Positions 28,037 through 60,445 of a DNA stretch of 64,000 bases are shown piece by piece. Positions within the stretch are counted from its first letter, which is position 1. Each line of letters begins with the position of its first letter. The notes below the pieces were generated by a model that worked only from the letters and a program-made list of their open reading frames with translations, did not search any database and was not told the origin of the DNA. The DNA comes from a virus: positions 1-64,000 of IMG/VR virus record IMGVR_UViG_3300043137_000298; one strand, given 5' to 3'. The position numbers and the translations under genes were made by a program.

Positions 28037-28037
28037 T

Positions 28038-29306: not shown

Positions 29307-29752
29307 TGCTTAATTACAATCCAATATATCGTAAATTTATAGATGATAGAAATTTAGTTCAACCAGCTAGAATGGTTAGAGCTAAATTCTATCTTATAAA
29401 AGAATATGAATATGTGGATGGTACTAAAGGGAAATATTCAGAAACGAATGCTCCTATAATTTATACATTGTTTGTATCTAAAGCTAAAAATTTAGTTCAC
29501 GCAGTTAAAGTATCCAATGTTAATCCAAATTTAATAAAAAAGTTTTTTGGTAAATTTGTTGATGAAGAAGAAGAGACTTTACAAATGAAAGGTGGAGCTA
29601 AGAAATTTTATACAAATGTTGTATCCAGAATTCCAATAATAACTAACGATGCTTATCGAACTTATAAGATTAGTGGATTTGGTAAAGTTATAGAATTAAA
29701 TATGGATATCAATCAACTTACGCCTAACAAAACACCAAAAAGAAATACATAA
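29306..29752 (+). CDS. Hypothetical protein, 148 aa
   Basis: Not recognised. Beta-rich, basic, with no Cys, signal peptide or membrane segment; K-A-K-N-L-V-H-A-V-K-V near residues 54-64 and a C-terminal Thr/Lys tail. It is inserted in the sugar cluster but does not look like an enzyme; one-base overlaps on both sides tie it to the operon. A structural or scaffold role is possible. Confidence 0.55.
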   Translation: MLNYNPIYRKFIDDRNLVQPARMVRAKFYLIKEYEYVDGTKGKYSETNAPIIYTLFVSKAKNLVHAVKVSNVNPNLIKKFFGKFVDEEEETLQMKGGAKKFYTNVVSRIPIITNDAYRTYKISGFGKVIELNMDINQLTPNKTPKRNT

Positions 29753-29988
29753 TGACATCAAACGAATTTGTCCTTTGGTTAAAAGGATTTTCAGAAGGAG
29801 TACACGAATTTAATATTACTCCAAAACAATGGGATATTTTAAAAGATAAATTAGCAGAAGTAGAGGATAAACCATTAATTCTCAAATCACCAATTACTTC
29901 TAATTGGAATTATACAAATTCAACATACAATCCACCATATACAACGGGTGGAGATGATGAGATTAAAAAATATCATAACGAAGATTAA
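29752..29988 (+). CDS. Small hypothetical protein, 78 aa
   Basis: The N-terminal half F-V-L-W-L-K-G-F then I-T-P-K-Q-W near residues 5-26 forms two or three helices of a pattern seen in many T4-like phage small proteins. The tail is Asn/Thr/Tyr-rich and disordered-looking. Function unknown. Overlaps both neighbours by one base. Confidence 0.6.
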   Translation: MTSNEFVLWLKGFSEGVHEFNITPKQWDILKDKLAEVEDKPLILKSPITSNWNYTNSTYNPPYTTGGDDEIKKYHNED

Positions 29989-30851
29989 TGAAGAAAGTAT
30001 TAGTTACGGGAGGAGCAGGATTTGTTGGATACGCTCTATCATCTGAATTACTTAAAAGAGGCTATAAAGTCCATGTGATTGATAATCTATCAATCGGTTC
30101 TGAAGCTAAGATTTCCCCATATGTAAAGTTTTTAGCTGGAGATATTAGGGCTATGGATAATATTAAAGATACTCCATATGATTACATTTTTCATTTAGCA
30201 GCATTAAGTAGAATACAACCCTCCTTTAAAAATCCATATACAACATTTTCAGTTAATGTCGATGGAACTAAAGAAGTTGTTAGCTATGCACATAGAAATA
30301 ATTCAAAATTAATATACGCAGGTTCATCATCTCGTCATCATAATCCAGAACTTTCACCATATGCAATGAGTAAACATATGGGTGAGGAGTGGATTAAAAT
30401 GGAAAAGAAAGTATTTGGAATGAGTGCTGAAATAGTTAGATTCTATAATGTATATGGGCCTGGTGAATTGGTAGACTCTCATATGGCCGCTGTAATTGGA
30501 TTATGGAGGGCAGCTGTAAAAAATAATACTCCTATTTTAATTCACGGAGATGGTAAGCAAAAGAGAGATTTTACGCATATAGATGATATCGTAGATGGGT
30601 TAATTAGAATAGCTGAAAGTAATGAAACGCATGAAGATGCTTGGGAATTAGGTACAGGCCATAATTACTCTTTGAATGAAGTAGCTAGTTTATTTGCACC
30701 ACATCCTATACAATATGTTGATGATGTAAAAGGCAATTATAGAGAAACCATTAGAATTAATGATGATGCCTTAAATAGATTGGGATGGCAACCAAAAGAC
30801 CAATTAAAAGAATATTTAAATGAAATTAAGTTACGCAATAACGGCTTGTAA
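29988..30851 (+). CDS. NAD-dependent sugar epimerase/dehydratase
   Basis: 287 residues, extended short-chain dehydrogenase. G-G-A-G-F-V-G at residues 8-14 binds NAD, H-L-A-A near 67 follows the second strand, a Ser-rich strand S-S-S near 113-115 and Y-A-M-S-K at about 124-128 supply the catalytic Tyr/Lys, and R-D-F-T-H-I-D-D near 191-198 is the family C-terminal block. GalE, HldD-like heptose epimerase or dehydratase cannot be separated by eye. Makes a nucleotide sugar for the neighbouring GTs. Confidence 0.85.
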   Translation: MKKVLVTGGAGFVGYALSSELLKRGYKVHVIDNLSIGSEAKISPYVKFLAGDIRAMDNIKDTPYDYIFHLAALSRIQPSFKNPYTTFSVNVDGTKEVVSYAHRNNSKLIYAGSSSRHHNPELSPYAMSKHMGEEWIKMEKKVFGMSAEIVRFYNVYGPGELVDSHMAAVIGLWRAAVKNNTPILIHGDGKQKRDFTHIDDIVDGLIRIAESNETHEDAWELGTGHNYSLNEVASLFAPHPIQYVDDVKGNYRETIRINDDALNRLGWQPKDQLKEYLNEIKLRNNGL

Positions 30852-31446
30852 TGAAGTCGAAGAAACCATTCGTTTGGTTAATCAGTTATTAAACTACAAA
30901 GAAGAGAATTCTGAAATAGTAGTTCTATTAGATACACCCAAAGCTCCTACCGAACTGATAGAATATTTAGAACTTCAAGCAAACGCCGACCATATTACAC
31001 TTATTGAATCCGAATTCAATAACGATTTTGCACAATGGAAAAACTTTTTAAACTCACAATGTAAAGGTGAGTGGATATTTCAATTGGATGCAGATGAATA
31101 TCTTACACCAGATTTGATTGTAAATTTGGAAGCACTATTGGAAGCTAATGTAGATAAGGACCTTATTTTAGTTCCTCGTATTAATACAGTCGAGGGATTA
31201 ACCGATGAACATATTCAAAAATGGGGTTGGAATGTAAATGAAAAGGGATGGGTAAACTTTCCCGATGTTCAGACTCGTATATATAAAAATAAGCCAGAGC
31301 AGATTGGATGGAATGGTAACGTACACGAAAGAATCGGTGGATTTGAAAATTATACAAATTTTCCATTAGAAGAAATATATTGTATTATACATCCAAAGAA
31401 TATAGAAAGACAAGAAAAGCAAAATAACTATTACGATACTCTATAA
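30820..31446 (+). CDS. GT2-type glycosyltransferase
   Basis: 208 residues, GT-A fold. Starts with the GT2-like Y-A-I-T-A-C-N-E and has the metal-binding D-x-D in Q-L-D-A-D-E-Y near residues 88-94. W-N-G-N-V-H-E-R near 163 is typical of GT2 enzymes of the LPS-core type. Overlaps the epimerase gene by 32 bases. Confidence 0.8.
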   Translation: MKLSYAITACNEVEETIRLVNQLLNYKEENSEIVVLLDTPKAPTELIEYLELQANADHITLIESEFNNDFAQWKNFLNSQCKGEWIFQLDADEYLTPDLIVNLEALLEANVDKDLILVPRINTVEGLTDEHIQKWGWNVNEKGWVNFPDVQTRIYKNKPEQIGWNGNVHERIGGFENYTNFPLEEIYCIIHPKNIERQEKQNNYYDTL

Positions 31447-32084
31447 TGGTACACATCTATTATCACATATATGCAATAGATGGCGTTGAGTCCATAATAG
31501 ATGAACAATTATCTTTAATTAAAAAGCACTTTGATTTTCCTTATATCTTAAACGTTGGAATTGTATTGGTAAATCAAAATCAATCCATAGCACATATTTT
31601 TGATAAAGTTAAAGATGTTAGAGATGTTAGAGTTAATGCAAATGAGTTTGTTACATTGGATTTGATAGAAAACGATAAGCATAAATTTGGTGATTTGGAT
31701 TATATTTTGTATCTTCACACAAAGGGAGCATCTAAGCAAAGTACCGAAGCATATAATAATATAATAAGTTGGAGACATCTTATGAATTATTATAATATAG
31801 AATTAAATAAGAAAGTATTTAATATTTTTGAAAAAACAAATTACAACACATATGGTGTATTGTTTACATCTGTTGCAAATTGGAGAATATATTCTGGTAA
31901 TTTTTGGTGGATGACCGGCAAATATGCTAAGAGCTTGAAATTGGATAGTATTCGTAAAAGTAGAACAAAAGCCGAAACGAATTTTATTCAAAATGGGATA
32001 GATTGGAAACCATATTCTCCATATAATAAAGATGGAGAAAATCATTATCTAATTGAATTTAAAAGAGAAGAATATGCAAAATAA
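31446..32084 (+). CDS. Glycosyltransferase-like protein
   Basis: 212 residues. Y-L-H-T-K-G near residues 88-93, then S-W-R-H-L-M-N-Y-Y and S-G-N-F-W-W near 150 resemble a family of GTs found in polysaccharide clusters (H-T-K-G-x-S and N-x-W-W patterns). No classical D-x-D is visible. Starts in the previous stop (TAATG) and overlaps the next gene by 11 bases. Confidence 0.65.
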   Translation: MVHIYYHIYAIDGVESIIDEQLSLIKKHFDFPYILNVGIVLVNQNQSIAHIFDKVKDVRDVRVNANEFVTLDLIENDKHKFGDLDYILYLHTKGASKQSTEAYNNIISWRHLMNYYNIELNKKVFNIFEKTNYNTYGVLFTSVANWRIYSGNFWWMTGKYAKSLKLDSIRKSRTKAETNFIQNGIDWKPYSPYNKDGENHYLIEFKREEYAK

Positions 32085-32940
32085 AATAACATTCATATAC
32101 GATTACAAAGATGGGGAGGCGTGGTCTACACCAATGGCTCTTATAAATGAATTTAAAGAGAGAGGATGGGAAACACAAATAATTAAAACAAACGATACCG
32201 ACTTAAAGAATTGGGTAGATTCCAAACCACAAACTGATATCGTATTGTTTATGGATTGGGGTAGATTTGATTCACAATATCTTAATAAAGATTTAGTTCC
32301 TGCCTTTTGGATACAAGAAAGTGGAGATGACCCTCAAAACTTTGAAAGAAACTATCCTAAAGCAAATCGATTCCATTTAACAATCACACCCGCATCCGAA
32401 AGTTGTAAAGAATATATTAGGAGAGGTATTAATGCTATATGGGTAAATCACTTCGCCGATACAGCAGTTCAATATCCAATGAATATTGAGCCGAAGTATG
32501 TAGCAGTTACTACGCGTGGATATGGTAGTTCGGAATTTTTAGACCATCTTACGAGATGGGCAGAAGGTGCCGTTGGTAATAAAAATGGTATGGGGCCAAA
32601 AGAACATACTGAATTTTTGAATAGTGGTTTGATGGTTATTCAGAATAGTAGATGGGGTGAAATAACTCGCAGAATATTCGAAGGAATGGCTTGTGGCAAA
32701 TTGGTATTAACTGATAGATTGAATATCACAACTGAATTACAATCCATATTCAAAGAAGGTGAGGAAATAGTTTTCTACAATGATATGTTTGATTGTATAG
32801 AGAAGATGAACTATTATAACGAAAACGAAGAAGAAAGGGAGAGAATCGCACATAATGGTATGATGAAAGTATTGCATAATTACACACAAATACAAGTTGT
32901 AGATACATTAATTGGAGAATATGAAAGAAGTAGGAAGTAA
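32074..32940 (+). CDS. GT-B type glycosyltransferase
   Basis: 288 residues from the ATG at 32074 (an upstream TTG at 32053 is less likely). Only the donor half is well marked: F-E-G-M-A-C-G-K-L-V-L-T near residues 206-217 and a C-terminal Glu/Asn-rich helix, as in the CgeB-like Glyco_trans_1_2 group. F-W-I-Q-E-S-G-D-D near 80 is also seen in this group. Confidence 0.75.
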   Translation: MQNKITFIYDYKDGEAWSTPMALINEFKERGWETQIIKTNDTDLKNWVDSKPQTDIVLFMDWGRFDSQYLNKDLVPAFWIQESGDDPQNFERNYPKANRFHLTITPASESCKEYIRRGINAIWVNHFADTAVQYPMNIEPKYVAVTTRGYGSSEFLDHLTRWAEGAVGNKNGMGPKEHTEFLNSGLMVIQNSRWGEITRRIFEGMACGKLVLTDRLNITTELQSIFKEGEEIVFYNDMFDCIEKMNYYNENEEERERIAHNGMMKVLHNYTQIQVVDTLIGEYERSRK

Positions 32941-33439
32941 TACATACGGGCACGATGGTATAAGAATAATACATACCGAAGGACCTGAAAAAATTAGAAT
33001 AGGTAAATTTTGCTCTATTGCAGAAGGTGTTACTATGTTTCTAGGAGCAAATCATAGATTAGATTGGTTTAGCACATATCCATTTGGGCATATATATGAT
33101 ACCAAATTCCCAAAAATGAAGAAAGGTATGGGACACCCAACATCGAATGGTGATATTACAATTGGGAATGATGTATGGATTGCAACGAATGTATCCATAA
33201 TGAGCGGTGTTACGATTGGAGATGGTGCGGTTGTTGCGGCATATAGTGTAGTAACGAAAGATGTTCCACCCTATACAATAGTAGGTGGAAATCCTGCTAA
33301 ACAAATTCGTAAAAGATTTAATGATGATATAATCAATAAACTTTTGGAATTAAAATGGTGGGATATGGAAGAGAGTAAAATAAATGAAATATCGGATATA
33401 CTTTGCTCAAATGATTTAGAAAGATTAAATAATATATAA
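32921..33439 (+). CDS. Hexapeptide-repeat O-acetyltransferase (CatB/WbbJ-like)
   Basis: 172 residues from the ATG at 32921. Left-handed beta-helix repeats (I-G-x-x-V/A units) are clear around residues 80-125 with I-G-N-D-V-W-I and I-G-D-G-A-V-V-A-A, a catalytic-type His in the N-H-R-L-D-W loop near 46, and the end G-N-P-A-K-Q-I-R of the CatB-like group. Acetylates a sugar using acetyl-CoA. Overlaps the previous GT by 20 bases. Confidence 0.9.
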   Translation: MKEVGSNTYGHDGIRIIHTEGPEKIRIGKFCSIAEGVTMFLGANHRLDWFSTYPFGHIYDTKFPKMKKGMGHPTSNGDITIGNDVWIATNVSIMSGVTIGDGAVVAAYSVVTKDVPPYTIVGGNPAKQIRKRFNDDIINKLLELKWWDMEESKINEISDILCSNDLERLNNI

Positions 33440-34032
33440 TGAAAAGAACAGATATAATCAATACTTTAATCCAAAAATTTGGATATAAATCTTATTTAGA
33501 GATTGGAACGCAAGACCCAACATCCAATTTCGATTTGATAAATGCGGAATGTAAAGTGTCTATTGACCCATTTCCACGAGGAGAGGTTACATTTATTGGA
33601 ACATCGGATGAATATTTTGAATCAATAGATGAAAATGCAAAATTTGATATAATCTTTATAGATGGATTGCATCATTCAGACCAAGTATTGAAGGATATCG
33701 AAAATTCCTTAAATCATTTATCAGATAATGGAACTATTGTTTGTCACGATTGTTTACCAACAACTGAAAAGATGCAAGAAAGAGATGACCATGGTGGAGA
33801 ATGGACTGGCGATGTGTGGAAAGCAATTGCTGAATTAAGAGTTGAAACAATTGATTTAGATATTAAAGTAGTTGATACTGATTATGGTTGCGGAATTATT
33901 CGTAGAGGAACTAATATTCCGTACGAAACAACTACTAATTATAAAACATATTCTCACTACTCTATGAATAAATGGAATATGTTAAATATTATATCACCCG
34001 AACAATTTATACAATGGATAAATATAGTATAG
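33439..34032 (+). CDS. SAM-dependent methyltransferase (class I)
   Basis: 197 residues. Y-L-E-I-G-T near residues 19-24 binds SAM, S-I-D-P-F near 41 is the acidic strand 2, and F-I-D-G-L-H-H near 73-79 followed by G-T-I-V-C-H-D-C matches the Methyltransf_24 type, common in sugar clusters where it methylates glycans. No DNA target-recognition domain is visible. Overlaps the next start by 19 bases. Confidence 0.8.
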   Translation: MKRTDIINTLIQKFGYKSYLEIGTQDPTSNFDLINAECKVSIDPFPRGEVTFIGTSDEYFESIDENAKFDIIFIDGLHHSDQVLKDIENSLNHLSDNGTIVCHDCLPTTEKMQERDDHGGEWTGDVWKAIAELRVETIDLDIKVVDTDYGCGIIRRGTNIPYETTTNYKTYSHYSMNKWNMLNIISPEQFIQWINIV

Positions 34033-34658
34033 TAATACCAACACTTTGGAAATCCAATAGAACAAAAAGACTACTTTCAGATTTAAATGAGTGTGAGTAT
34101 GTGGATGAAATCATCGTTATAGATAATACTTTAACATCTATTAGTGATACTCAAGAAGGTAAAATGAGAATAGTTTCATTTGGTGAAAACATATTTGTTA
34201 ATCCAGCATGGAATTGGGGAATACATAATGCCAAAAATACATCAATAGCATTGATAAATGATGATATAAATTTTAACCCAAATATATTTGAAGTAATAAC
34301 CGAAAATGTATTAAATCAATTCGGTATCATCGGAATGGGCGAAGGTAATTATAAATCCCTAAACATAGATGGTGACCCCATATTAGAAGTATGGCAACCT
34401 GGTGTAAATGATTGGGGTTGGGGTTGTTTTATTATGTTGAATAAAACCCATTGGATAGATATTCCAAACGACATAAAAATATGGTATGGGGATAATATTA
34501 TAAAAGATGTAAACCCAACACCTAAAGCGGTATTAAGAAATTTTAGAGTTGATACTGAAATGAGTACAACATCGGATGAACCTATTTGGAATGATAGAAA
34601 GAAAGAAGATTACAATAACTTTATAAATTATTTAAGAAATGCAAAAATTACCAATTAG
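34014..34658 (+). CDS. GT2-like glycosyltransferase
   Basis: 214 residues from the ATG at 34014. Begins Y-S-I-V-I-P-T-L, then V-D-E-I-I-V-I-D-N-T near residues 32-41, F-V-N-P-A-W-N-W-G near 62 and L-I-N-D-D-I near 81-86 as the D-x-D equivalent. A GT-A fold enzyme with unknown acceptor. Overlaps the next gene by 20 bases. Confidence 0.75.
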   Translation: MDKYSIVIPTLWKSNRTKRLLSDLNECEYVDEIIVIDNTLTSISDTQEGKMRIVSFGENIFVNPAWNWGIHNAKNTSIALINDDINFNPNIFEVITENVLNQFGIIGMGEGNYKSLNIDGDPILEVWQPGVNDWGWGCFIMLNKTHWIDIPNDIKIWYGDNIIKDVNPTPKAVLRNFRVDTEMSTTSDEPIWNDRKKEDYNNFINYLRNAKITN

Positions 34659-35379
34659 TATTGGAATATTAGCTTGGAATAGTGGGCAAGTATTAGTGGA
34701 TACATTGAGTACTTACCATCAGAATGGATTGTTTAATATGGTAAATGATACTACTATTTTATTCCAAGAGTTTTCGGAGCAAGATTACCAAATAGCAAAA
34801 CACTTTGGATTAGATTTTATAGGTTTAACTCAAAATGTTGGTATTGGTAAAGCATTTATAAAATTAACTGAAAATGCCGAATCCGAAAATGTACTAATAT
34901 TAGAACACGATTGGAATCTAATAGAGAATAAAGAAACCACTTATCAAAGATTGGAATCGGGATTAGAACTATTGGGTGGTAGTGTTGATGTTGTAAGATA
35001 TAGACACAGAGAGCAACCTGGTAATCCACATTTCTCATTTAGACATAAAGGTAAAGAACTTACTTATTATGATGATGAGATTGGATGTACATCTCCGCAC
35101 CTTTTAGATTCGTTACATTGGTTAGACCCTAAAAAAGAATTTCCCGAATACATAGGGCAGTTTGGTGAATACTTTTTAACATCATCTCGATATGGTAATT
35201 GGACAAATAATCCGTGTATGTATAAAAAGCAATTTTACTTAGATACCGTTAAACCATTCGCAGGTGAGGGTATTGGATTGGAAGGAAACATCAGTAAATG
35301 GTGGGCACAACAAAACTATTCAGTTGCGCATGGTGAGGGATTATTCAAACATAACGATTGGCAAAAATACGGAAGATAA
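34639..35379 (+). CDS. GT2-like glycosyltransferase
   Basis: 246 residues. I-G-I-L-A-W-N-S at the start, N-V-G-I-G-K-A near residues 72-78 and L-I-L-E-H-D-W near 91-97 at the metal site. The C-terminal half is rich in aromatic residues (W, Y), suggesting a sugar-acceptor surface. Its stop overlaps the next ATG by one base. Confidence 0.75.
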   Translation: MQKLPISIGILAWNSGQVLVDTLSTYHQNGLFNMVNDTTILFQEFSEQDYQIAKHFGLDFIGLTQNVGIGKAFIKLTENAESENVLILEHDWNLIENKETTYQRLESGLELLGGSVDVVRYRHREQPGNPHFSFRHKGKELTYYDDEIGCTSPHLLDSLHWLDPKKEFPEYIGQFGEYFLTSSRYGNWTNNPCMYKKQFYLDTVKPFAGEGIGLEGNISKWWAQQNYSVAHGEGLFKHNDWQKYGR

Positions 35380-36134
35380 TGAAAGATTTAGTTATATCGG
35401 CAATTGCAAACTATTTGCCAGAAAAGATTAAAGTATATGTTGAATCCCTAAAAGATTGTGGATTTGATGGTGATAAAGTAATGATATGCTACAACATACC
35501 AACCGAAACGATTGAATATCTTTCTTCATTTGGATGGGAGTGTTATGGTGCAGAATTAGTAGGACATCCTCATATGAAACGATTGGTAGATATGTGGTGG
35601 TTCTTACAAAACGATAATAGAGAGTGGAATCATATAATCACAACAGATGTTAGAGATATTGTATGGCAAACAAATCCATCGGAATGGTTAAAAGAAAATC
35701 TTAAAACTGAAATCATTTGTGCATCCGAATGTGTTGCATATGAAAATGAAGCATGGGGACACAAAAATATTCACGAAGGATATGGACCAATGTTTTGGGA
35801 TTGGATTAAACCTAACACAATTGGTAATGTAGGTGTTATAGCTGGAAAGGGAAAATTTGTAAAAGAATTATTGATGTTAAATTGGTTAGTATCTCAATCG
35901 GGAGATACAAGACATTTCACCGACCAGAGCTCATTTAATTTTATTATACACAATGAACTTATACGAGATAGAATATCCATTAGTTCGGATTTTGCATTAC
36001 AAGTTGGGACTACTACAAAGGATTTGAAAATAAAAGATGATATAATTATGAATGGTGAAACGCCATATGTGTTAGTTCATCAATACGATAGAAATACAAA
36101 ATTAAATAATTTAGTTATAAACAAATACAAATGA
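35379..36134 (+). CDS. Glycosyltransferase-like protein
   Basis: 251 residues from the ATG at 35379 (TAATG with the previous stop). I-I-T-T-D-V-R-D-I-V-W near residues 84-94 is a D-x-x-D metal-site pattern seen in GT-A-type transferases of capsule clusters, and I-G-N-V-G-V-I-A-G near 149 precedes a conserved-looking helix. Family not certain. Confidence 0.65.
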   Translation: MKDLVISAIANYLPEKIKVYVESLKDCGFDGDKVMICYNIPTETIEYLSSFGWECYGAELVGHPHMKRLVDMWWFLQNDNREWNHIITTDVRDIVWQTNPSEWLKENLKTEIICASECVAYENEAWGHKNIHEGYGPMFWDWIKPNTIGNVGVIAGKGKFVKELLMLNWLVSQSGDTRHFTDQSSFNFIIHNELIRDRISISSDFALQVGTTTKDLKIKDDIIMNGETPYVLVHQYDRNTKLNNLVINKYK

Positions 36135-37030
36135 AAAAAATAGTTATTACAACTTTTATAATGCCAAATGAAATTGATGATTTGGAAAGAATTTTAATGG
36201 ATTTAAATAAAGCATCTAAGTACATTAAAGGTGAAAATTATGAATTATATTTAGCACTTACGGTAGATGACTTTTTGGTTGATTGGAGTAATTCTAAATT
36301 GGATAAGCAATATTTTATCGATAGATTTAATAAATTGAAACCATTAACTGAATGGGCTGGGAAAACTTCATTCCATATCAGAGAGGATATTATGGGATGT
36401 ACATCATTGAGAAGAATAGCTCATAATGAATGTAAGGATGCAACTCATTTTATTTGGTTGGATACAGATATATGTTTTGATGACAGAATCTTATATTATA
36501 TTGAAGCAAGTATTGATAGAATAGCTGAAACTGATAATTTACAAAAATATATAATCAGTCCAGAATGTGTAAAGATATGGGATACGACTTGGGATTGTTT
36601 AGTGAATGAAAATTTTCTTAATAAGGAAGTTGGATATTGTAAAATAAATAATCCATTTATAGATAGTGGAGAAATTGGCGATGTTACATTGGAAACTGTT
36701 TTAAATAATGTGCCGGGTCAACCTAAAATGAAATTCGGTGGAGGTTGGTTTAATTGTTTATCAAAACCACTATTAGATAGAGCACCTTTGCCTGAATCGA
36801 TGGGACACTATGGGCCGGATGATACGTTTATTATGTGGGCATCTGAGAAATTAAATCAAAATGGTGAGCAGATGTATCAATTTAAATTAAAAAATTATGT
36901 TGTATGTGAAAACTATGTTTATAGAGATAGAACCCATTATGATACATTAATAAAACGAATTGATAGAAAAGATGATTTTAGGAATCAAGCAAATCAATCA
37001 TTTGAAATGGAAATTAATAAAATAGTATAG
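36131..37030 (+). CDS. GT-A type glycosyltransferase
   Basis: 299 residues. W-L-D-T-D-I-C near residues 113-119 is the D-x-D, a G-G-G-W-F-N near 201-206 and G-P-D-D-T-F near 225-230 mark the acceptor side. Overlaps the previous gene by 4 bases (ATGA). Last gene of the 10-kb sugar run; a short AT-rich gap follows. Confidence 0.75.
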   Translation: MKKIVITTFIMPNEIDDLERILMDLNKASKYIKGENYELYLALTVDDFLVDWSNSKLDKQYFIDRFNKLKPLTEWAGKTSFHIREDIMGCTSLRRIAHNECKDATHFIWLDTDICFDDRILYYIEASIDRIAETDNLQKYIISPECVKIWDTTWDCLVNENFLNKEVGYCKINNPFIDSGEIGDVTLETVLNNVPGQPKMKFGGGWFNCLSKPLLDRAPLPESMGHYGPDDTFIMWASEKLNQNGEQMYQFKLKNYVVCENYVYRDRTHYDTLIKRIDRKDDFRNQANQSFEMEINKIV

Positions 37031-48219: not shown

Positions 48220-49872
48220 ATGAAAAAACTAATCGCATTTTTAGGGATACTTCTAATATCTCTATCATCTTATGGACAATTAACAATCAGTCAATCGTTG
48301 ACACCCTCAACGGGGTTGAAAGTTGGTGATACAATTACAGTCAAATATACTTTATCAAAAGGACAAGTAATTAAAAATCCACGTTACCTTTGGTTTAGAT
48401 ATCAGTATAGTAATAAATCATTGGCGTATGTATCTACTACGTTTAATCAAGGAACATCCGCACAAACATTTTATACGGGTTGGAGTAACTATAAGTTTAC
48501 TTTCAATAGTAGAGGTGGTGATAATGATTTAGATGTTCAATATGGATTGACTCCTTGGGCTTATACTGCAAACGCAGATTGGAATGTTGGACAATTAACT
48601 GTTCAGAGAGCAGACGCATCTATTAGTGGTGTAATTGCTACTCAAAAATATATCTTAAAAGACCAAAATACTTATTCAAATATATTCAAAATAGATTTAG
48701 CAACTGGTACCGATACCGATGGTGCAAACGTTGGAACTATATATGGGGGTGGCTCATCATCTATAACGGGTGTAACGGGTAACACATCTCAATTCAAAGT
48801 AAAAGTATTATATCCAGAAGGATACACTATTACTGACCATAGTGTTCAATTGATGAAATTGAAATCGGATGGTAGTGGTAATATTGATTGGACACAAGCC
48901 CCAATTGCTCAATTACCATTGGATGCAAGTGGTGAAGCTCTTTTCACAACACAAATTAAAGTTGGTGATTCGGTTGGTGTATTCGTAGGAGCAGCATTTC
49001 AAAAGAGTTGGATGAATAACATTGTGACAGTATCCGATGCATATAAAGCATTCTTAGGACACTCACAAACTGATATTAGTGGAACTTCAAACTTCTTTAC
49101 TTTACCTGCATTGGAAAAGAAAGTTGGTAAAGTTACTAACAATATGAACGCATTCGGTGAAGGAGATTCATACGCATTATTTGCACACGTAATGGGGCAA
49201 AATATGGATTCAAATGCAATGATTCCAACACCAACATCAACATCAGTAAGATGGTATAGTGGTTTATTAAATCAAAGTTGGTTAGATGGAGTTGTAAAGA
49301 ATAGAGTATTAATCGATACTCCTATAAAAGAAGTTTATGCAGTATTTGCTTGGGGTGGTGATTTGAACTGGTCACATTCATCGGACCCGGCAGTAATTGC
49401 TACTAAGATAACTGCGGGACAATATACAAATTCGCTAAGTGATAAAGCTACTAGTTCAATTAAATCTATGAGTACCGCTCCAATGGCTTATCAAACTTTG
49501 GCAGCTGAAAAAGCAACATTGGGTATTGCATCTACCTTAGAAGGTGGTAAAGTAATATTAACTACAACTTTGACAAAAGCTGAATTAGCAGGTTTGCAAG
49601 TTATTATGAATTATGATGAATCTAAATTAACTTTGGATAATGTGATATTTGATTCTGGCTCTACGATTACAAATTTCTCTACACATAATAATGGTAGATT
49701 GACATTTGGTTCGATTGACCAATTAAAAACTGCAAGAATTAAAGTAGGAACTCCATATAAATTAATATTTACACCAAAGACAACTTTAACAAATACTGCG
49801 GGATTATTCTACTTTGTATTATCAGATGCAGTAGATTCAAAAGGTAATAAAATTGACCTAATAGTTGAATAA
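48220..49872 (+). CDS. Secreted protein with degenerate dockerin-like and cohesin-like domains
   Basis: 550 residues from the ATG at 48220 (the upstream TTG is less likely). Signal peptide M-K-K-L-I-A-F-L then ending S-Y-G-Q (about 1-19). V-S-D-A-Y-K-A-F near residue 269, an N-x-N loop with H-V-M-G near 308-328 (degenerate dockerin), W-G-G-D-L-N-W-S-H-S near 381 and a C-terminal beta domain (about 440-550; M-N-Y-D-E-S-K-L near 466) like cohesin. This order recurs in the next protein. Likely sits on or outside the outer membrane. Confidence 0.7.
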   Translation: MKKLIAFLGILLISLSSYGQLTISQSLTPSTGLKVGDTITVKYTLSKGQVIKNPRYLWFRYQYSNKSLAYVSTTFNQGTSAQTFYTGWSNYKFTFNSRGGDNDLDVQYGLTPWAYTANADWNVGQLTVQRADASISGVIATQKYILKDQNTYSNIFKIDLATGTDTDGANVGTIYGGGSSSITGVTGNTSQFKVKVLYPEGYTITDHSVQLMKLKSDGSGNIDWTQAPIAQLPLDASGEALFTTQIKVGDSVGVFVGAAFQKSWMNNIVTVSDAYKAFLGHSQTDISGTSNFFTLPALEKKVGKVTNNMNAFGEGDSYALFAHVMGQNMDSNAMIPTPTSTSVRWYSGLLNQSWLDGVVKNRVLIDTPIKEVYAVFAWGGDLNWSHSSDPAVIATKITAGQYTNSLSDKATSSIKSMSTAPMAYQTLAAEKATLGIASTLEGGKVILTTTLTKAELAGLQVIMNYDESKLTLDNVIFDSGSTITNFSTHNNGRLTFGSIDQLKTARIKVGTPYKLIFTPKTTLTNTAGLFYFVLSDAVDSKGNKIDLIVE

Positions 49873-49873
49873 T

Positions 49874-52171
49874 ATGAAAAATTTAATAGTTACATTATTA
49901 TTTCTATTAACATCATTTTTAGGGTTCGGTCAGAGTGTATCTGCGCCGGACTCTAAATCGTTTATACCATCCACAACCGGACAAGATGCTAGTGGATTTG
50001 TATTGAGTGGGTTTAGTACAACATCAACTTTATTAACATCAATAAGTTTAGTAAATCCACCATCTGGTACAACATTTTATTTAAATGAAACAAGAGGTTT
50101 AATTGCAGCAAGTGGATTTACTCTAACGGGTAATAAAACTCGTTTAGTAGTAATGGGAACTATGGCTGATGTTAATACAGCATTAGCATCTCTAAAAATA
50201 AACACAGGTTCAATAAAAGGTAATGTGGCATTATCGGTAGCAGCAACAGTCAATCCCGCGGGATATTTCTACAATGGTGTGAACGGACACTTTTATAAAC
50301 CAATATCAACGGGTACAACTTATACGAACGCAAGAGCAGCATCTGAATTAACAACATTCAAAGGACAAACGGGATATTTGGTAACAATTACTTCGGCTGA
50401 TGAAGATGCTTTTATTTATAATAATGTTCCCCAATCTCAAATATGGTTTGCGTTAACCGATGAAGCGAGTGAAGCCAGATGGGTAATTGATGCTGGTCCT
50501 GAAAAAGGAACTTTAATTAAAATCAACAACGGACAAACAAACGGAAATATCCCTGGTCAATATAATAACTGGGCAGGTGGCGAACCAAACAATAGTGGTA
50601 ATGAAGATTATGCAGTAACAAAGTGGAATGGGACACAATGGAATGATTTACCCAATCATTTTAATTGTCCTTATGTAATTGAATATGGAACTTGGTCTAA
50701 TCCTGATGATGCAACCTTTACGGAATTTTACACTAATTCGGTAACTCACTCAAATGGAGAAGTTTTAACCGCAAGATTCAATTTTGACTTTGGTGGTAAT
50801 GTGGATGAAACAAAATTTTCAGCAAAAGCAAACTCATATGTAAATAATGTATGGGGTACAATAACCAATACATCAAGAACAATAAGTGGATTGGGTAAAG
50901 TTGATTTAACAAACGATTTAGATACTGCTAAAACGCAAACAGGTAATTACAAAATTATAATTGGAGCATCCAATTGGGAATCTTTAATAATATCTAATTA
51001 CGATGCTAATTTGGGAGGACATAGATTACAAATAGATGAAAGGGTTTTTAATTCATCATCACCCGCATTTGCAAACATAACATCCGTTAAATTTTTAGAT
51101 ATATACGAAGGTGGGATGCAAGTATATAATGTAAATGGTTGGTGGAAAACGTATTTAATATCAACTAACTTAACAACACAAATAGCAAATAGTACTTATC
51201 AAAGTTCAATAAGAAATATGGGGGATGGGTTTGCGGTAACTGCCGGTACAAATTTTACATTTTCACCAATACAATCTTACAAACAGCATGGTATTGATTT
51301 ATCATATACCAATCAAACCGATTTGAATACTCTTTATAGCAATATAGTTGGAGTATCGGATGTTTATTTGGCATTTAAAGAATTATCATTGGGTGGATTA
51401 TTTGGAAATGAAAGTGGAAATGAGTTTACATCGGGTATTCAATATATGAACGCTGATGTAGATGGTAATGGTATATTTAATGAAGCAGATACATACAAAT
51501 TATTACAACATTTGACGGGAGCCGCACCACTAACACAATATTCAGCATTAACCTATTTGATGAAACTGTATGGTAAAACCGAATACGATGCTATAACAAA
51601 ATCAAATTGGAATACTCAATTTAACGCAACTAGAAGTTTATATCCATTTAATTTGAATAGTGGAGTATTAAATAACACATATAATGTAAATGTAACTTGG
51701 GTGGGTGATGTGAATTTATCACATTCAGCAAAACAAACACAAAGTAGTATTGCTACCAATTCATATAGAACTATGAGTTTATCAACTCAATCGGTTTCTA
51801 ATCAAATCAACGCATATCTAATGGGTGAAAATGTTGGTGGTAAATTGATAGTAACTATTTCAGTAGACCCATTACAGCAAGAATTGGTAGGAACTCAATT
51901 TAATTTAAACTATGATAATACCGCTCTAAAATTTGAAAAGGTAGAATTCACTACAAAGGGAACACCTATCAATTTTGGAACTGATAGAAATACATACATA
52001 ACATTGGGTTCATTAATAACAGATGGCTCAACTACATTAGATAAAACAACCGAATATAAAATAACATTCTTACCTTTAATGGGATTGAGTAGTACATTAG
52101 GATTGACTTCAGTTTCAAATACCGATGCAGTAAGTAAGAGTGGAATACAATTAAAAGTAAAGGTAAATTAA
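49874..52171 (+). CDS. Secreted C-type-lectin adhesin with dockerin-like and cohesin-like domains
   Basis: 765 residues. Signal peptide ending in G-F-G-Q (about 1-20), then a beta-repeat N-terminal part (about 25-130), a C-type lectin-like domain at about 135-272 (Y-L-V-T-I-T, I-W-F-A-L-T-D, N-W-A-G-G-E-P-N-N, W-N-D-L), a Ca-type dockerin loop D-V-D-G-N-G-I-F-N-E-A-D near 529-540, V-G-D-V-N-L-S-H-S near 611, and a cohesin-like C-terminal beta domain (about 652-765). The lectin-linked layout is typical of flavobacterial surface adhesins, so the gene is probably host-derived. Sugar specificity is not known. Confidence 0.78.
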   Translation: MKNLIVTLLFLLTSFLGFGQSVSAPDSKSFIPSTTGQDASGFVLSGFSTTSTLLTSISLVNPPSGTTFYLNETRGLIAASGFTLTGNKTRLVVMGTMADVNTALASLKINTGSIKGNVALSVAATVNPAGYFYNGVNGHFYKPISTGTTYTNARAASELTTFKGQTGYLVTITSADEDAFIYNNVPQSQIWFALTDEASEARWVIDAGPEKGTLIKINNGQTNGNIPGQYNNWAGGEPNNSGNEDYAVTKWNGTQWNDLPNHFNCPYVIEYGTWSNPDDATFTEFYTNSVTHSNGEVLTARFNFDFGGNVDETKFSAKANSYVNNVWGTITNTSRTISGLGKVDLTNDLDTAKTQTGNYKIIIGASNWESLIISNYDANLGGHRLQIDERVFNSSSPAFANITSVKFLDIYEGGMQVYNVNGWWKTYLISTNLTTQIANSTYQSSIRNMGDGFAVTAGTNFTFSPIQSYKQHGIDLSYTNQTDLNTLYSNIVGVSDVYLAFKELSLGGLFGNESGNEFTSGIQYMNADVDGNGIFNEADTYKLLQHLTGAAPLTQYSALTYLMKLYGKTEYDAITKSNWNTQFNATRSLYPFNLNSGVLNNTYNVNVTWVGDVNLSHSAKQTQSSIATNSYRTMSLSTQSVSNQINAYLMGENVGGKLIVTISVDPLQQELVGTQFNLNYDNTALKFEKVEFTTKGTPINFGTDRNTYITLGSLITDGSTTLDKTTEYKITFLPLMGLSSTLGLTSVSNTDAVSKSGIQLKVKVN

Positions 52172-52938
52172 TGAAAAAGATAATATTAATATTGTTATTA
52201 TTTCCTATTTTTGTATTCTCACAAGATGCAAAGAATAGGGAAATGCAAATGCAGGTAAATAATTTGCAACCACCTCCACCGCCATCTGGTCAAAAAGGTT
52301 CAATAGTTAAGACAAATGCATTCCTAACATCATCTGATTTTGTATTTTTGCAAAAACCAACTTATGTAGGTGGATGGTTAAAAGCCCTTTCATTAGGGGG
52401 TGGTAGACAATCGTTAAATGGTGTTTATTCGTATGGTGGTAATGGTTTTCTTACAACGGATGGCTCTCAATATGGAGTATCGGCATTTGTAAGTAAAGGC
52501 AATAATAACCTATTCCTTTCATTTACCGAAATAAGCACAAATAGAACAACAACATTAACTTATGTAAAGTTATATAAAGGAAAGTGGAATAAAGGATTTG
52601 GTATTAATTTATCGAATACTTTCAGCCAAATAACTGATAGTTTACCACCAATGCACACAGGTGCACCATCGGCTATGATATTTCTTAATAGAACATATGA
52701 AAATGGTAGATTTACAATTACTCCCGACTTACTTTTAAGTTATTCGCATATGTATTGGGATTTGGGATTAAGTAATAAAACAATAGACCCAACATTTAAC
52801 GCATTAGTAGGAACTTCGTTTGGATATAAGATTTCAAAAAGATTTATTTTATTAGTTGCTTATAGAGGAAACATAAATACTAACCCTAAGTTTGGATTGA
52901 TGAATAATATATCCATAGGAAATAAATTTAATTTCTAA
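52171..52938 (+). CDS. Outer-membrane beta-barrel candidate, 255 aa
   Basis: Signal peptide ending F-V-F-S-Q (about 1-18), then a Pro stretch P-P-P-P-P near 33-37 and about 200 residues of alternating strands with aromatic girdles. The C-terminal part (F-G-Y-K-I-S-K-R-F near 216, ending S-I-G-N-K-F-N-F) matches the end of the 470-aa protein at 58179 (F-D-Y-K-I-S-R-R-F, ending I-G-S-R-M). Ends in an aromatic, as barrels do. Overlaps neighbours by one base. Confidence 0.68.
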   Translation: MKKIILILLLFPIFVFSQDAKNREMQMQVNNLQPPPPPSGQKGSIVKTNAFLTSSDFVFLQKPTYVGGWLKALSLGGGRQSLNGVYSYGGNGFLTTDGSQYGVSAFVSKGNNNLFLSFTEISTNRTTTLTYVKLYKGKWNKGFGINLSNTFSQITDSLPPMHTGAPSAMIFLNRTYENGRFTITPDLLLSYSHMYWDLGLSNKTIDPTFNALVGTSFGYKISKRFILLVAYRGNINTNPKFGLMNNISIGNKFNF

Positions 52939-53279
52939 TGAAAAAAATAATATTGATATCGTTGATTTTATTGGTAGGATGTAGTAAACCAGATTTACCA
53001 ACACCAACTATGCCAATTGAAAAGATATTCAATGTAACTGAAAGTAAAGTAGAAAATGGTCAATCTATTCATTTCGATTTACCATCAGCAGGAACATATA
53101 CTTTAACTTTAATTGATAAAGAAAGTGGACAAGTAATCAGTAGAGAAAGGTTTATTGGACAGCGTGGTGAAAATGTAAAAAAGATTTATACGAAATCAAT
53201 ACAATCTACATATTTATATCTGTTATTAGAAGATGTTACTAAAAAAGAAATAGCAAAAACAGTAATAATAATAAAATAA
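52938..53279 (+). CDS. Lipoprotein with a beta C-terminal domain
   Basis: 113 residues. Lipobox L-L-V-G-C with Cys at residue 15, followed by S-K-P-D. The rest is one beta-sandwich-like domain with G-T-Y-T-L-T-L-I-D near 55-63, resembling the C-terminal sorting/por-secretion-type domains of Bacteroidetes (G-x-Y-x-x-x-L-x-D). Should be an inner- or outer-membrane-anchored lipoprotein. Paired with the next gene one base away. Confidence 0.7.
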   Translation: MKKIILISLILLVGCSKPDLPTPTMPIEKIFNVTESKVENGQSIHFDLPSAGTYTLTLIDKESGQVISRERFIGQRGENVKKIYTKSIQSTYLYLLLEDVTKKEIAKTVIIIK

Positions 53280-53665: not shown

Positions 53666-53986
53666 ATGGCAGAAGAACAAGAAGAAAAGGGTGGTACTTC
53701 GATTAAAAGTATCCTTATTGGTTTAGTGAGTACTATCACATTGGGTGTAGGTGGTTTCATTACAAATAAATTGACGGGTGGTGAAGAAGAAAAGCCAGCA
53801 GCAGTACAAGCGGCACCGGTTATTAATATTACAAACTCTAACCAACAAGCTCAACAACAATCGGCAGGTGGTAAGACTGTAATCATTAAAGAGAAAGCAG
53901 TAGGCGGAAACACTCAACCTGCGCCCGCACCTAAGCCTAAGAAAAAGGAAGGTGATGAGTTTAAAGAAGAAGCACCTAAATGGTAA
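53666..53986 (+). CDS. Membrane protein with Pro/Ala/Gln-rich tail
   Basis: 106 residues: acidic N-terminus, one membrane segment at about 16-36 (I-L-I-G-L-V-S-T-I-T-L), then a disordered Ala/Pro/Gln/Lys tail. A single-span membrane protein with a flexible periplasmic or cytoplasmic tail. No family recognised. Confidence 0.55.
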   Translation: MAEEQEEKGGTSIKSILIGLVSTITLGVGGFITNKLTGGEEEKPAAVQAAPVINITNSNQQAQQQSAGGKTVIIKEKAVGGNTQPAPAPKPKKKEGDEFKEEAPKW

Positions 53987-54948: not shown

Positions 54949-55671
54949 ATGAAAAATTTATTAGTATTATTAAGTTTCTTTTTATTAAGCAGCAATGTGG
55001 TTGTTGCACAAACAATAGGAAAAACGCAAACCGAACAATATAAAGCATCATTCGAACGTGCTATTGATATTGAGCAATATTTGGATTATAGTGGTAAGCA
55101 AATACCAATTCAAATATTAAAATGTGGCATATCGGATGAGGTATATGAAATGTATCCCGAATTGAAAGAAAAGAGAGTAGGATTGGGGGTTGCGAATATT
55201 ACAATGGAATATTTAGAAAATCTCAATCGATTCAAATTCACAGAAGATAAAACGGAAATCAAAAATCGTATGGTAAAGCAATTCCAAGCATCGCAAGCTG
55301 GAATTTCCGAAAACAAATTGGATGGTCGTGGTAAAATTAATTTAGCAGAGTATTTTGTTGCTATCGAAGTATATGATTATTCCATATCAGAAGATGAATC
55401 AATCAATTTAAAAGATGGTATTAAAGATAATATGGTAACTCGTTTGGGATTACAGGTTCGTTTCACAAATGCAGAAACCGGCGTAGTATTTGGTGCAAGT
55501 GGTTTGGGTGAAGCAACTACAAACAGACAATTAACCTTATTATCAGATGCTACAATAGACCCAATTAAATTCAATCAATCAACTATTAGTATAGCAACTA
55601 AAAAAGCATTAGATATCGCATGTGCTAGAATTTTAAAAAGAATGATTGATAAGCAAATATTTGAAAAATAA
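54949..55671 (+). CDS. CsgG-like protein
   Basis: 240 residues. Signal peptide ending V-V-V-A-Q (about 1-21), no lipobox Cys after it, unlike classical CsgG. The C-terminal half has the CsgG/LpoB-type rhythm: F-V-A-I-E-V-Y near 125-131, L-G-L-Q-V-R-F-T-N-A-E-T-G near 161-173 and a final helix with A-R-I-L-K-R. In CsgG these parts form the periplasmic vestibule of an outer-membrane pore. CsgG-like genes are known from some marine phages, where a lysis role was proposed. LpoB-like alternatives remain. Confidence 0.68.
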   Translation: MKNLLVLLSFFLLSSNVVVAQTIGKTQTEQYKASFERAIDIEQYLDYSGKQIPIQILKCGISDEVYEMYPELKEKRVGLGVANITMEYLENLNRFKFTEDKTEIKNRMVKQFQASQAGISENKLDGRGKINLAEYFVAIEVYDYSISEDESINLKDGIKDNMVTRLGLQVRFTNAETGVVFGASGLGEATTNRQLTLLSDATIDPIKFNQSTISIATKKALDIACARILKRMIDKQIFEK

Positions 55672-57996: not shown

Positions 57997-58179
57997 ATGA
58001 ATAAAAAATTATCATCGGTTTTATTGACAATCGTTATACTATTAATAGTAAGTGGATTTGGATATATACTTTATAAGTTTCCAAACGAAACATTATCGGT
58101 AATAATAGGCATTATATGTTTGATGTTCGTAAGACATACATATGTTGCGGTATCTAATGTATTGGATGGAAATGTATAA
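57997..58179 (+). CDS. Small two-span membrane protein, 60 aa
   Basis: Hydrophobic segments at about 7-27 (V-L-L-T-I-V-I-L-L-I) and 34-50, separated by a short Pro/Asn loop. Its stop overlaps the next gene's ATG by one base, so it is coupled to the barrel protein and may help its export or act as holin-type partner. Confidence 0.6.
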   Translation: MNKKLSSVLLTIVILLIVSGFGYILYKFPNETLSVIIGIICLMFVRHTYVAVSNVLDGNV

Positions 58180-59591
58180 TGAATAAATGGCTAGTATTTT
58201 TAACGATAATTGTTACTACATTATTTGCTGAAAATGCGAATGGGCAAACCTATACACAAACTTTCGTAGATAAGTGTACAGGTGAAACTAAAATAGCTAC
58301 AACTACAATGATTAATGGATATGCAACTGTATCCTTTTATAATCAAACACGAGTATTTTCTCCATTAGAAGTTCAGACGGGTATAGTACAAACTTGGTTA
58401 ATAACAACAAAGGCTACATACGAATCATTAACTTGTCCCGTAATAAATAATCCAATTGTACAACAAGCGGTAGCAAATGCGGCAGCAACAGCCGCTAGTA
58501 ATGCGGCAGCAACAGCGGCATCATCTGCAGCTAGTTCAGCGGCATCATCATCGGCTAGTTCGGCAGCAAGTAGTTCAGCTAGTTCAGCAGCTGCGAGTTC
58601 AGCCGCATCAACACCACCGCCAACAACACCTCCGCCGGCATCATCCCCGCCACCGGCGAGTAATAGTTCATCATCATCCTCATCATCGAATAGTAGTTCA
58701 TCTTCTAGCTCATCATCATCTTCGGAAAGCAAAACCGAAGCAAAGACTGAAGCTAAAACTGAATCCAAATCCGAATCAAAATCAGAAAGTAAATCTGAAA
58801 GTAAGAGTGAAGAAAAGAAAGAAGAAGCTAAATCTGAATCAAAAGAAGAAAAGAAAGAGGAAAGCAAATCTGAAGAGAAAAAAGAAGAAAAGAAAGAGGA
58901 GAAGAAGGAAGAAAAGAAAAAAGAAAAAGCAGTGGTAGCTAATCCAATGCTATTATCATCCGACTTATCTACAATAGAATCACCCGATGGTAGATTTTTA
59001 CAATCAGCAACAATTGGGGTATCTAAATCATCAATGGCTGGAGATGAAAGTTATTCGGCAAATGCTGTTATTATGAGTGATTTGAAAACATTCATAGTAA
59101 GTGGTGGATATACTCAAATGGACTTTTCAGAAGGTAAACTAAATGCCATACATTCATATTCATCCGCATTTGCATATCTGAATGGTAATTATATGAATTT
59201 ATTGGGTTACACTTGGATTAAGCCTACTCCAAAGAGAGGTGTATTTGGCTATAATTTGGCAGTAATTAATTTATTCTTAAAATCATCCGATACTAAATAT
59301 GATTACAATATGTCATCATCAATGGTAGCATTTTGGACTAAACCATATCAGTATTCTAAAAAGCTAACAATATCTCCACAAATATTTACAATGTTTGCAC
59401 CAATTGGTTGGAATAGTGTAACCGGAATGTCAACTGTAAATAGACATATGGGTTTCTTATTAGGTGCATCATTTGATTATAAAATAAGTAGAAGATTTGG
59501 ATTCAGTTTCAATTATAAACTAAGTGGAAATACGACACCTAATTCTCAATTTCTAAGTAACTTCTTAATAGGAAGTAGAATGGTGCTTTAA
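58179..59591 (+). CDS. Secreted low-complexity linker protein with C-terminal outer-membrane barrel
   Basis: 470 residues. Signal peptide ending A-N-G-Q (about 1-23). A small domain with a Cys pair (about 33 and 87) follows, then Ala/Ser-rich (about 95-145), Pro-rich (146-162), Ser-rich (163-185) and Lys/Glu/Ser-repeat (186-250) stretches. The last 210 residues are strand-rich and match the end of the protein at 52171 (F-D-Y-K-I-S-R-R-F). So it is an anchored barrel carrying a long flexible arm. Similar low-complexity arms span periplasm or reach out of the cell. Function unknown. Confidence 0.68.
   Translation: MNKWLVFLTIIVTTLFAENANGQTYTQTFVDKCTGETKIATTTMINGYATVSFYNQTRVFSPLEVQTGIVQTWLITTKATYESLTCPVINNPIVQQAVANAAATAASNAAATAASSAASSAASSSASSAASSSASSAAASSAASTPPPTTPPPASSPPPASNSSSSSSSSNSSSSSSSSSSSESKTEAKTEAKTESKSESKSESKSESKSEEKKEEAKSESKEEKKEESKSEEKKEEKKEEKKEEKKKEKAVVANPMLLSSDLSTIESPDGRFLQSATIGVSKSSMAGDESYSANAVIMSDLKTFIVSGGYTQMDFSEGKLNAIHSYSSAFAYLNGNYMNLLGYTWIKPTPKRGVFGYNLAVINLFLKSSDTKYDYNMSSSMVAFWTKPYQYSKKLTISPQIFTMFAPIGWNSVTGMSTVNRHMGFLLGASFDYKISRRFGFSFNYKLSGNTTPNSQFLSNFLIGSRMVL
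58480..58935 (+). repeat. Low-complexity coding repeats
   Basis: Inside the 470-aa gene: GCx-rich Ala/Ser codons (GCGGCAACAGCC-type units), TCA/AGT runs, then GAATCAAAA- and GAAGAAAAG-type units coding K-S-E-S and E-K-K-E repeats. Such runs are prone to slippage, so this arm length should vary among related phages. Confidence 0.8.
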
Positions 59592-59845: not shown

Positions 59846-60445
59846 ATGAAACAATTATTATCGGTTATTACTTTTATAAGTGTAACGTTATCAGGATTCG
59901 GACAAGATATCAAAGTTAAAAACAATGTATTTGAGGTATTGTATTCTCAACAATTGGAGCAACCATTACGAATACTATATAGAGATATAAATAGACCTAC
60001 AAAAGTAAATAGAGGTTCTATGGATTTTTACAAAGAAGTAAATATTAAAACATCGGATGCGGCTGATTACAAATCAAACATATACGATAAAGGACATGGA
60101 GCACCTGCTGCATCATTTTCTGATAATATGGAAAACCTTAAACAAACGTTTTCGTATTTGAATTGTATAATGCAAGACCAATATCTTAATAGAGGTGAAT
60201 GGAGATTATTAGAAGAGCAAGAAAGAAAATGGGATGATACTGAAAACTTAACAGTAATCATTAAAACTATATTCGATAAAAATCCAAAGAGAGTACCATC
60301 CGGAGCAGCAATTCCATTGGTATTACAAAAGCATATCTATTTCGAAACACAAAAGAAATGGAAGTGTTATGTATTCTTAAATGAAAAACCTAAATATAAG
60401 TGGGATGAGCTAGAAATGGTTTGCCCACCATCCGACCACCAATAA
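59846..60445 (+). CDS. Secreted non-specific DNA/RNA endonuclease (NUC1 type)
   Basis: 199 residues. Signal peptide ending G-F-G-Q (about 1-20). Y-D-K-G-H-G-A near residue 80 is the D-R-G-H active-site motif with Lys for Arg (general base His), and N-x-x-x-Q-x-x-x-N near 104-112 with R-G-E-W-R-L-L-E after it is the metal Asn/helix block of the beta-beta-alpha-metal family. A secreted or periplasmic nuclease that could degrade host DNA, incoming phage DNA or extracellular DNA. Confidence 0.82.
   Translation: MKQLLSVITFISVTLSGFGQDIKVKNNVFEVLYSQQLEQPLRILYRDINRPTKVNRGSMDFYKEVNIKTSDAADYKSNIYDKGHGAPAASFSDNMENLKQTFSYLNCIMQDQYLNRGEWRLLEEQERKWDDTENLTVIIKTIFDKNPKRVPSGAAIPLVLQKHIYFETQKKWKCYVFLNEKPKYKWDELEMVCPPSDHQ

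Follow-up and report, generated by a model that had tools for sequence, protein, structure and literature searches.

A candidate cohesin-dockerin surface display cassette with a C-type lectin head in a phage genome record

What might a phage gain from two neighbouring secreted proteins built of cohesin, dockerin and lectin domains? The question is raised by the tandem genes P1 and P2 in a 64,000-nucleotide stretch (hereafter the window) that forms positions 1 to 64,000 of the IMG/VR virus record IMGVR_UViG_3300043137_000298 (71,995 bp). Cohesin-dockerin assemblies have been studied mainly as bacterial cellulosomes. We consider it rather probable that P1 and P2 belong to a surface display, encoded by the phage and built by cohesins and dockerins, that presents glycan-binding heads on infected cells. 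This reading is based on domain content, homology, a conserved cassette, swappable heads, a sorting domain in relatives and lipoprotein co-variation; the dockerins would bind cohesins within the set, either each other's or those of homologues, at the outer surface.

P1 consists of a signal peptide, a cohesin, a transthyretin-like domain, a degenerate dockerin, a linker and a cohesin, giving two cohesins and one degenerate dockerin in total. P2 consists of a signal peptide, a beta domain, a C-type lectin domain (CTLD), a variable beta module, a dockerin, a linker and a cohesin. The N-termini of both were signal-peptide-like, stopping before a conserved Gln. An earlier sequence-only reading had regarded the two as paralogues with blocks in a common order, and this was borne out: both open reading frames (ORFs) were present, VSDxYxAF was located at residues 271–278 of P1 and 494–501 of P2, GDxNxSHS at 380–387 and 611–618, respectively, and hhalign of the two family alignments matched P1 259–549 with P2 482–764 (Prob 99.7, E 9e-27, 264 columns). 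Given this E value and the common block order, the likeness reflects homology rather than chance. In 71 P1 and 78 P2 sequences, the SHS motif and its flanks were invariant or almost so.

The same reading had placed a cohesin-like domain at both C-termini, and this held. The P2 region exceeded the Pfam Cohesin (PF00963) cut-off of 24.1 bits, with 25.2 bits (24.6 in another scan), and matched 2jh2 in Foldseek (E 8e-7). P1 of the window did not itself reach the cut-off, and its domain was recognized through homologues, 29 of 71 of which matched (best E 3.6e-6), that of locus L081 with 27.5 bits. The N-terminal cohesin of P1, absent from the earlier reading, was called on fold, because its sequence profile gave only chance antibody matches in PDB; residues 19–187 of the AlphaFold model (predicted local distance difference test score, 87) resembled the cohesins 2jh2/2vo8 (VIA Z 13.6, root-mean-square deviation [rmsd] 2.3, 131 aligned). 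The window protein had no sequence match there, nor did the P1 profile match PDB by sequence; at the homologous position of locus L178, Pfam Cohesin was found with an E of 3.6e-4, below the cut-off.

A dockerin-type loop had been expected in both proteins. It was present in P2 (DVDGNGIFNEAD), which has one canonical and one degenerate Ca2+ loop; in P1 its Ca2+ ligands were lost. Deletion of the P1 loop was also considered and ruled out by hhalign and the homologue alignment, in which the loop was present though degenerate. Dockerin_1 was matched by 19 of 21 P2 homologues (best E 1.1e-4); the window P2 dockerin alone scored 14.0 bits, below the cut-off of 22.9 (PF00404), and its weak PDB matches included the dockerins 5m2s and 3ul4.

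The CTLD was found in P2 alone, as had been proposed: residues 165–267 matched Pfam Lectin_C (PF00059) above the cut-off (E 1e-4), and the fold matched 2ox9 (VIA Z 16.9, rmsd 2.0, 125 aligned). Of the folds that the earlier reading had named for checking, the cohesin (P1 19–187 and the P2 C-terminus) and the CTLD were found. CTLDs with an EPN motif have mannose-type specificity, and the P2 domain is predicted to be a Ca2+-dependent, EPN-type glycan-binding head. The module behind it was the most variable segment of P2. It was usually about 195 amino acids (aa) long; other phages had a long form of about 297 aa, which contained LCCL, or a short one of about 86 aa. Its one hit, to DUF4465 in 9hmu (E 0.019), was weak, and the module was left unnamed. 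In three P2 relatives (L022, L023, and L059), the lectin half was replaced, by PA14 in L022, and the dockerin and cohesin were kept, so that heads are exchanged within the window's own group too. A diversity-generating retroelement acting on the lectin was rejected, since no reverse transcriptase was present in the record.

Relatives of P1 and P2 were found at about 80 IMG/VR loci each, on viral contigs whose lengths reached 289 kb. Among the cultured phages searched, P1 had no relative and P2 only one, the lectin of Flavobacterium phage immuto (38% identity). In immuto, gp013 is a CTLD-dockerin protein, gp014 a cohesin-transthyretin-dockerin protein, and gp015 a cohesin with a type A sorting domain of the type IX secretion system (T9SS; 44.8 bits against a cut-off of 23). 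A weak Transthyretin match in gp014 lies at the place equivalent to the small transthyretin-like domain of P1. Among 27 loci read for gp015 relatives, the closer ones kept the three-gene order of immuto; in more distant ones (L184–L190, L152, and L156), anchor and adaptor were one protein of about 630 aa, or part of one, with the layout cohesin-dockerin-cohesin-sorting and, in those tested, the sorting domain at the end. The heads carried on the conserved dockerin were CTLD (immuto, L176), PA14 (L178, and L022 of the window group), GEVED (L168), CTLD with LamG (L185, L186), CTLD with Ig_7 (L155), CTLD with LCCL, and one unnamed (L167); L176 had two heads for one scaffold. Dockerin-bearing head proteins of 10 relatives contained binding-type domains or had no match, and in none was an enzyme family found. 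By domain content, the immuto-like gene sets follow the anchor/adaptor/effector pattern of cellulosomes, with binding heads replacing enzymes. These relatives, in which anchor, adaptor and head each have a gene of their own, give good grounds for proposing that cohesins and dockerins assemble at the cell surface.

Gene order was kept in about 80 viral contigs: YajG-like gene, P1, P2, an optional outer-membrane-type protein, lpp1, lpp2, small membrane proteins, a gp017-like gene, and an outer-membrane-type protein. This phage setting, and the continuation of the cassette into lipoproteins and outer-membrane-type proteins, go beyond the earlier reading. Co-variation was analysed in 80 phages, with 14 immuto-like loci for comparison. 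The cassette was highly mosaic, and neighbours were often uncorrelated (P1 end and P2 start, r 0.03; upstream gene and P1 start, r 0.03). Values for lpp1 were r 0.63 with the P2 cohesin and 0.58 with the P2 dockerin, and in the 36 phages with 0.8–1.7 kb between P2 and lpp1 they were 0.55 and 0.60, respectively; none of 500 permutations attained r 0.55 for the cohesin and lpp1. The transthyretin-like domain of P1 co-varied with lpp2 (r 0.42) across the entire P2 gene. These values suggest two functional pairs, P2 with lpp1 and P1 with lpp2. DUF3244 was matched by all 26 lpp2 homologues and Por_Secre_tail, weakly, by 20 of them, pointing to a sorting-domain-like fold in lpp2, which lpp1, judged from sequence only, would share. 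The motif C-x-K-(D/E)2, which in Bacteroidota marks lipoproteins for export to the surface (PMC5080379), occurred in 35 of 72 unique lpp2 sequences, and 65 of the 72 had K at +3; lpp2 of the window reads C-T-K-D-D-V.

Co-variation also bears on an unlikely alternative, that cohesin and dockerin pack within one chain or act as spacers, the proteins being single lectin-type adhesins that do not assemble. The dockerin adjoins the cohesin of its own chain through a flexible linker, and the within-chain dockerin-cohesin value of P2 (r 0.66) was the strongest of that pair type. However, immuto and its relatives place head dockerin, adaptor and anchor cohesin on different proteins, and because the immuto-type domains are so separated, in-chain packing is not the sole arrangement of the family.

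For the display proposed here, P1 and P2 would be exported during infection, and cohesin-dockerin contacts would assemble a P1 scaffold with the P2 glycan-binding head at the outer surface of an infected Bacteroidota cell. The scaffold would be held by the T9SS sorting domain in relatives, and in the window lineage probably by lipoproteins, lpp2 for P1 and lpp1 for P2. Several observations weigh against this proposal. The T9SS sorting domain (PF18962 or TIGR04183) was absent from P1 and P2, and matches to it across the whole record stayed below the cut-off. The full export signal was found in only 6 of 80 lpp1 sequences, and linkage may account for part of the lpp1 signal. In the homologue alignment, the dockerin-like region of P1 kept its helices and lost its Ca2+ ligands. 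Co-variation of the P1 cohesins with the P2 dockerin was weak (r 0.13–0.14); with r 0.13 for the N-terminal cohesin, co-variation does not identify the dockerin-cohesin partners. For the immuto-like loci, r was 0.74 between the dockerin of gp014 and the cohesin of gp015, but the two are encoded side by side, and neither cohesin co-varied with the dockerins of the heads.

As to its purpose, which is probably superinfection exclusion or cell capture, a lectin layer might cover or cross-link surface glycans and so block adsorption of competing phages, a possibility we hold tentatively. That neighbouring cells are held close for the next round of infection seems to us more doubtful.

Quite improbable is the reading of the cassette as a secretion pore whose passengers serve uptake or lysis timing, as has been proposed for the curli-type genes of pelagiphages. 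In its favour, proteins of the outer-membrane type and a secreted gp017-like one generally lie close by, and curli genes are known from marine phages (PMC7029224, PMC9004378). The gp017-like protein, the best-conserved cassette member, had seemed by eye a likely curli pore protein CsgG (PF03783), an assignment that was dropped: neither Pfam nor PDB profiles supported it, hhalign against E. coli CsgG gave Prob 1.2, and 61 Sphingobacteriaceae genomes yielded no CsgG for comparison. A pore would moreover leave the lectin and PA14 heads unexplained.

The single-stranded DNA-binding protein (SSB), UvsX-like protein, exonuclease, DnaB, and ribonucleotide reductase (RNR) of the record matched phage families and were colinear with those of immuto. 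Since the host of immuto is a Flavobacterium and the group carries T9SS domains and lipoprotein signals, its hosts are most likely Bacteroidota. Least probable of the alternatives is that P1 and P2 are virion components, as decoration or tail fibres that bind host glycan at adsorption: in large phages, lectin domains mostly go with tails or heads (PMC7824862), but P1 and P2 have signal peptides, the cassette includes T9SS sorting domains and lipoproteins, and its neighbours in two phage lineages (that of the window and immuto) are replication and nucleotide genes, with no structural-module genes recognized around it. Because of this neighbourhood and the secreted nuclease in the cassette, takeover of the host surface or exclusion of rival phages fits better than virion structure. 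The nuclease (59846–60445, and L157 9935–10513), whose counterpart in immuto directly precedes the lectin gene, could degrade incoming or extracellular DNA.

Coordinates are collected in Table 1. The product of 52171–52938 had no family match. The slot between P2 and lpp1 was empty in 43 of 79 cases and otherwise held an insert of about 0.8–1.7 kb, sometimes a different outer-membrane-type gene. A small protein with a GG motif and a low-complexity tail (53666–53986), homologous to immuto gp016, was kept in most cassettes. Elsewhere in the window, a long run of genes (26657–37030) resembled glycosyltransferases and sugar-nucleotide enzymes, for example an epimerase at 29988; a heptose-kinase-like gene (39957) and a cytidylyltransferase-like gene (42005) were likewise read from sequence, and a cupin (47085) from a family match. 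The phage may thus also remodel surface glycans.

Table 1. Features of the P1/P2 cassette, in window coordinates
Feature	Position	Strand	Basis
YajG-like protein, conserved upstream of P1	47556..48218	+	Lipoprotein_16 E 1.4e-4, just below cut-off; gene order
P1, secreted scaffold-like protein, 550 aa, ATG start	48220..49872	+	ORF
P1 N-terminal cohesin fold, residues ~19-188	48277..48783	+	VIA fold comparison
P1 dockerin-like region, residues 259-400, VSDAYKAF ... GDLNWSHS	48994..49419	+	hhalign homology to P2 dockerin, homologue alignment
P1 C-terminal cohesin, residues 429-550	49504..49869	+	Cohesin matches in homologues
P2, secreted lectin-bearing protein, 765 aa, ATG start	49874..52171	+	ORF
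P2 C-type lectin domain, residues 129-276	50258..50701	+	Pfam Lectin_C, VIA
P2 EPN motif, E237 P238 N239	50582-50590	+	conserved in at least 90% of homologues
P2 WND motif, W256 N257 D258	50639-50647	+	conserved in at least 90% of homologues
P2 variable beta-rich module, residues 286-480	50729..51313	+	domain lengths per homologue
P2 dockerin, residues 481-620	51314..51733	+	Dockerin_1 in homologues, weak PDB matches
P2 dockerin Ca2+ loop DVDGNGIFNEAD	51455-51490	+	
GDVNLSHS, end of P2 dockerin	51704-51727	+	
P2 C-terminal cohesin, residues 643-765	51800..52168	+	Pfam Cohesin, Foldseek
Predicted outer-membrane-type protein with signal peptide	52171..52938	+	sequence reading; in some relatives only
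lpp1, lipoprotein, co-varies with P2 dockerin and cohesin	52938..53279	+	
lpp2, lipoprotein, co-varies with P1	53281..53652	+	
gp017-like secreted protein, 52% to immuto gp017, best-conserved cassette member	54949..55671	+	
Predicted outer-membrane-type protein, homologue of immuto gp018	58179..59591	+	gene order
Secreted DNA/RNA non-specific endonuclease, homologue of immuto gp012 (46%)	59846..60445	+	Endonuclease_NS E 4e-18

The lectin had been thought captured from hosts. Its closest cellular relative found was an adhesin in a Sphingobacteriaceae metagenome-assembled genome (L159), 56% identical to P2 22–291 over 270 aa and encoded by a 1921-aa ORF with a gliding-associated-like C-terminus, followed by a PorP/SprF-like gene (sequence reading). 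The adhesin speaks for capture; the finding of any relative in only 3 of 301 Sphingobacteriaceae genomes speaks rather against it. Capture is plausible on this comparison, and exchange between host adhesins and phages, in either direction, is likely.

That large Bacteroidota phages encode a complete cellulosome-like display kit, with anchor, adaptor and exchangeable carbohydrate-binding heads that coat infected cells, may well be so, though we stop a little short of expecting it. If true, viruses would gain their first known cohesin-dockerin assembly and phages a new route to control superinfection or capture cells, and such an assembly in a virus, with lectin heads that can be exchanged, would show phages spending several kilobases on rebuilding the exterior of the infected cell. 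A literature search on phages with cohesin and dockerin gave nothing relevant, and no published account of the P1/P2 system was found; the immuto proteins are annotated merely as lectin and cohesin domain proteins, for which no published function was found. The cassette is conserved across many environmental phage genomes and one cultured phage, and immuto with its Flavobacterium makes the idea testable. Such a system would also offer new, compact candidate binding pairs.

Among known systems, the curli genes of pelagiphages and Melnitz ("sibling capture") are likewise phage genes acting outside the infected cell, with similar ecological proposals, the capture idea among them (PMC7029224), whereas kinship to CsgG/CsgF was not demonstrable for the window cassette. 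The T9SS CTLD adhesin of L159 shares the lectin region of P2, and differs in being chromosomal and in having no recognized dockerin or cohesin. Immuto gp012–gp019 (NC_055915) is closer, with a homologous nuclease, CTLD-dockerin, cohesin-dockerin and cohesin-sorting domain proteins, and gp016–gp019; its three separate genes correspond to two in the window, where P1 and P2 are without the sorting domain. Unlike cellulosomes, the viral set is phage-borne, its docking is putative, it would be anchored by a T9SS sorting domain or a lipoprotein, and its effectors are binding domains (CTLD, PA14, GEVED, LamG), with no enzymes seen. The folds and the logic are nevertheless those of the cellulosome: a cohesin with a surface anchor, a cohesin-dockerin adaptor, and a dockerin with a variable effector.

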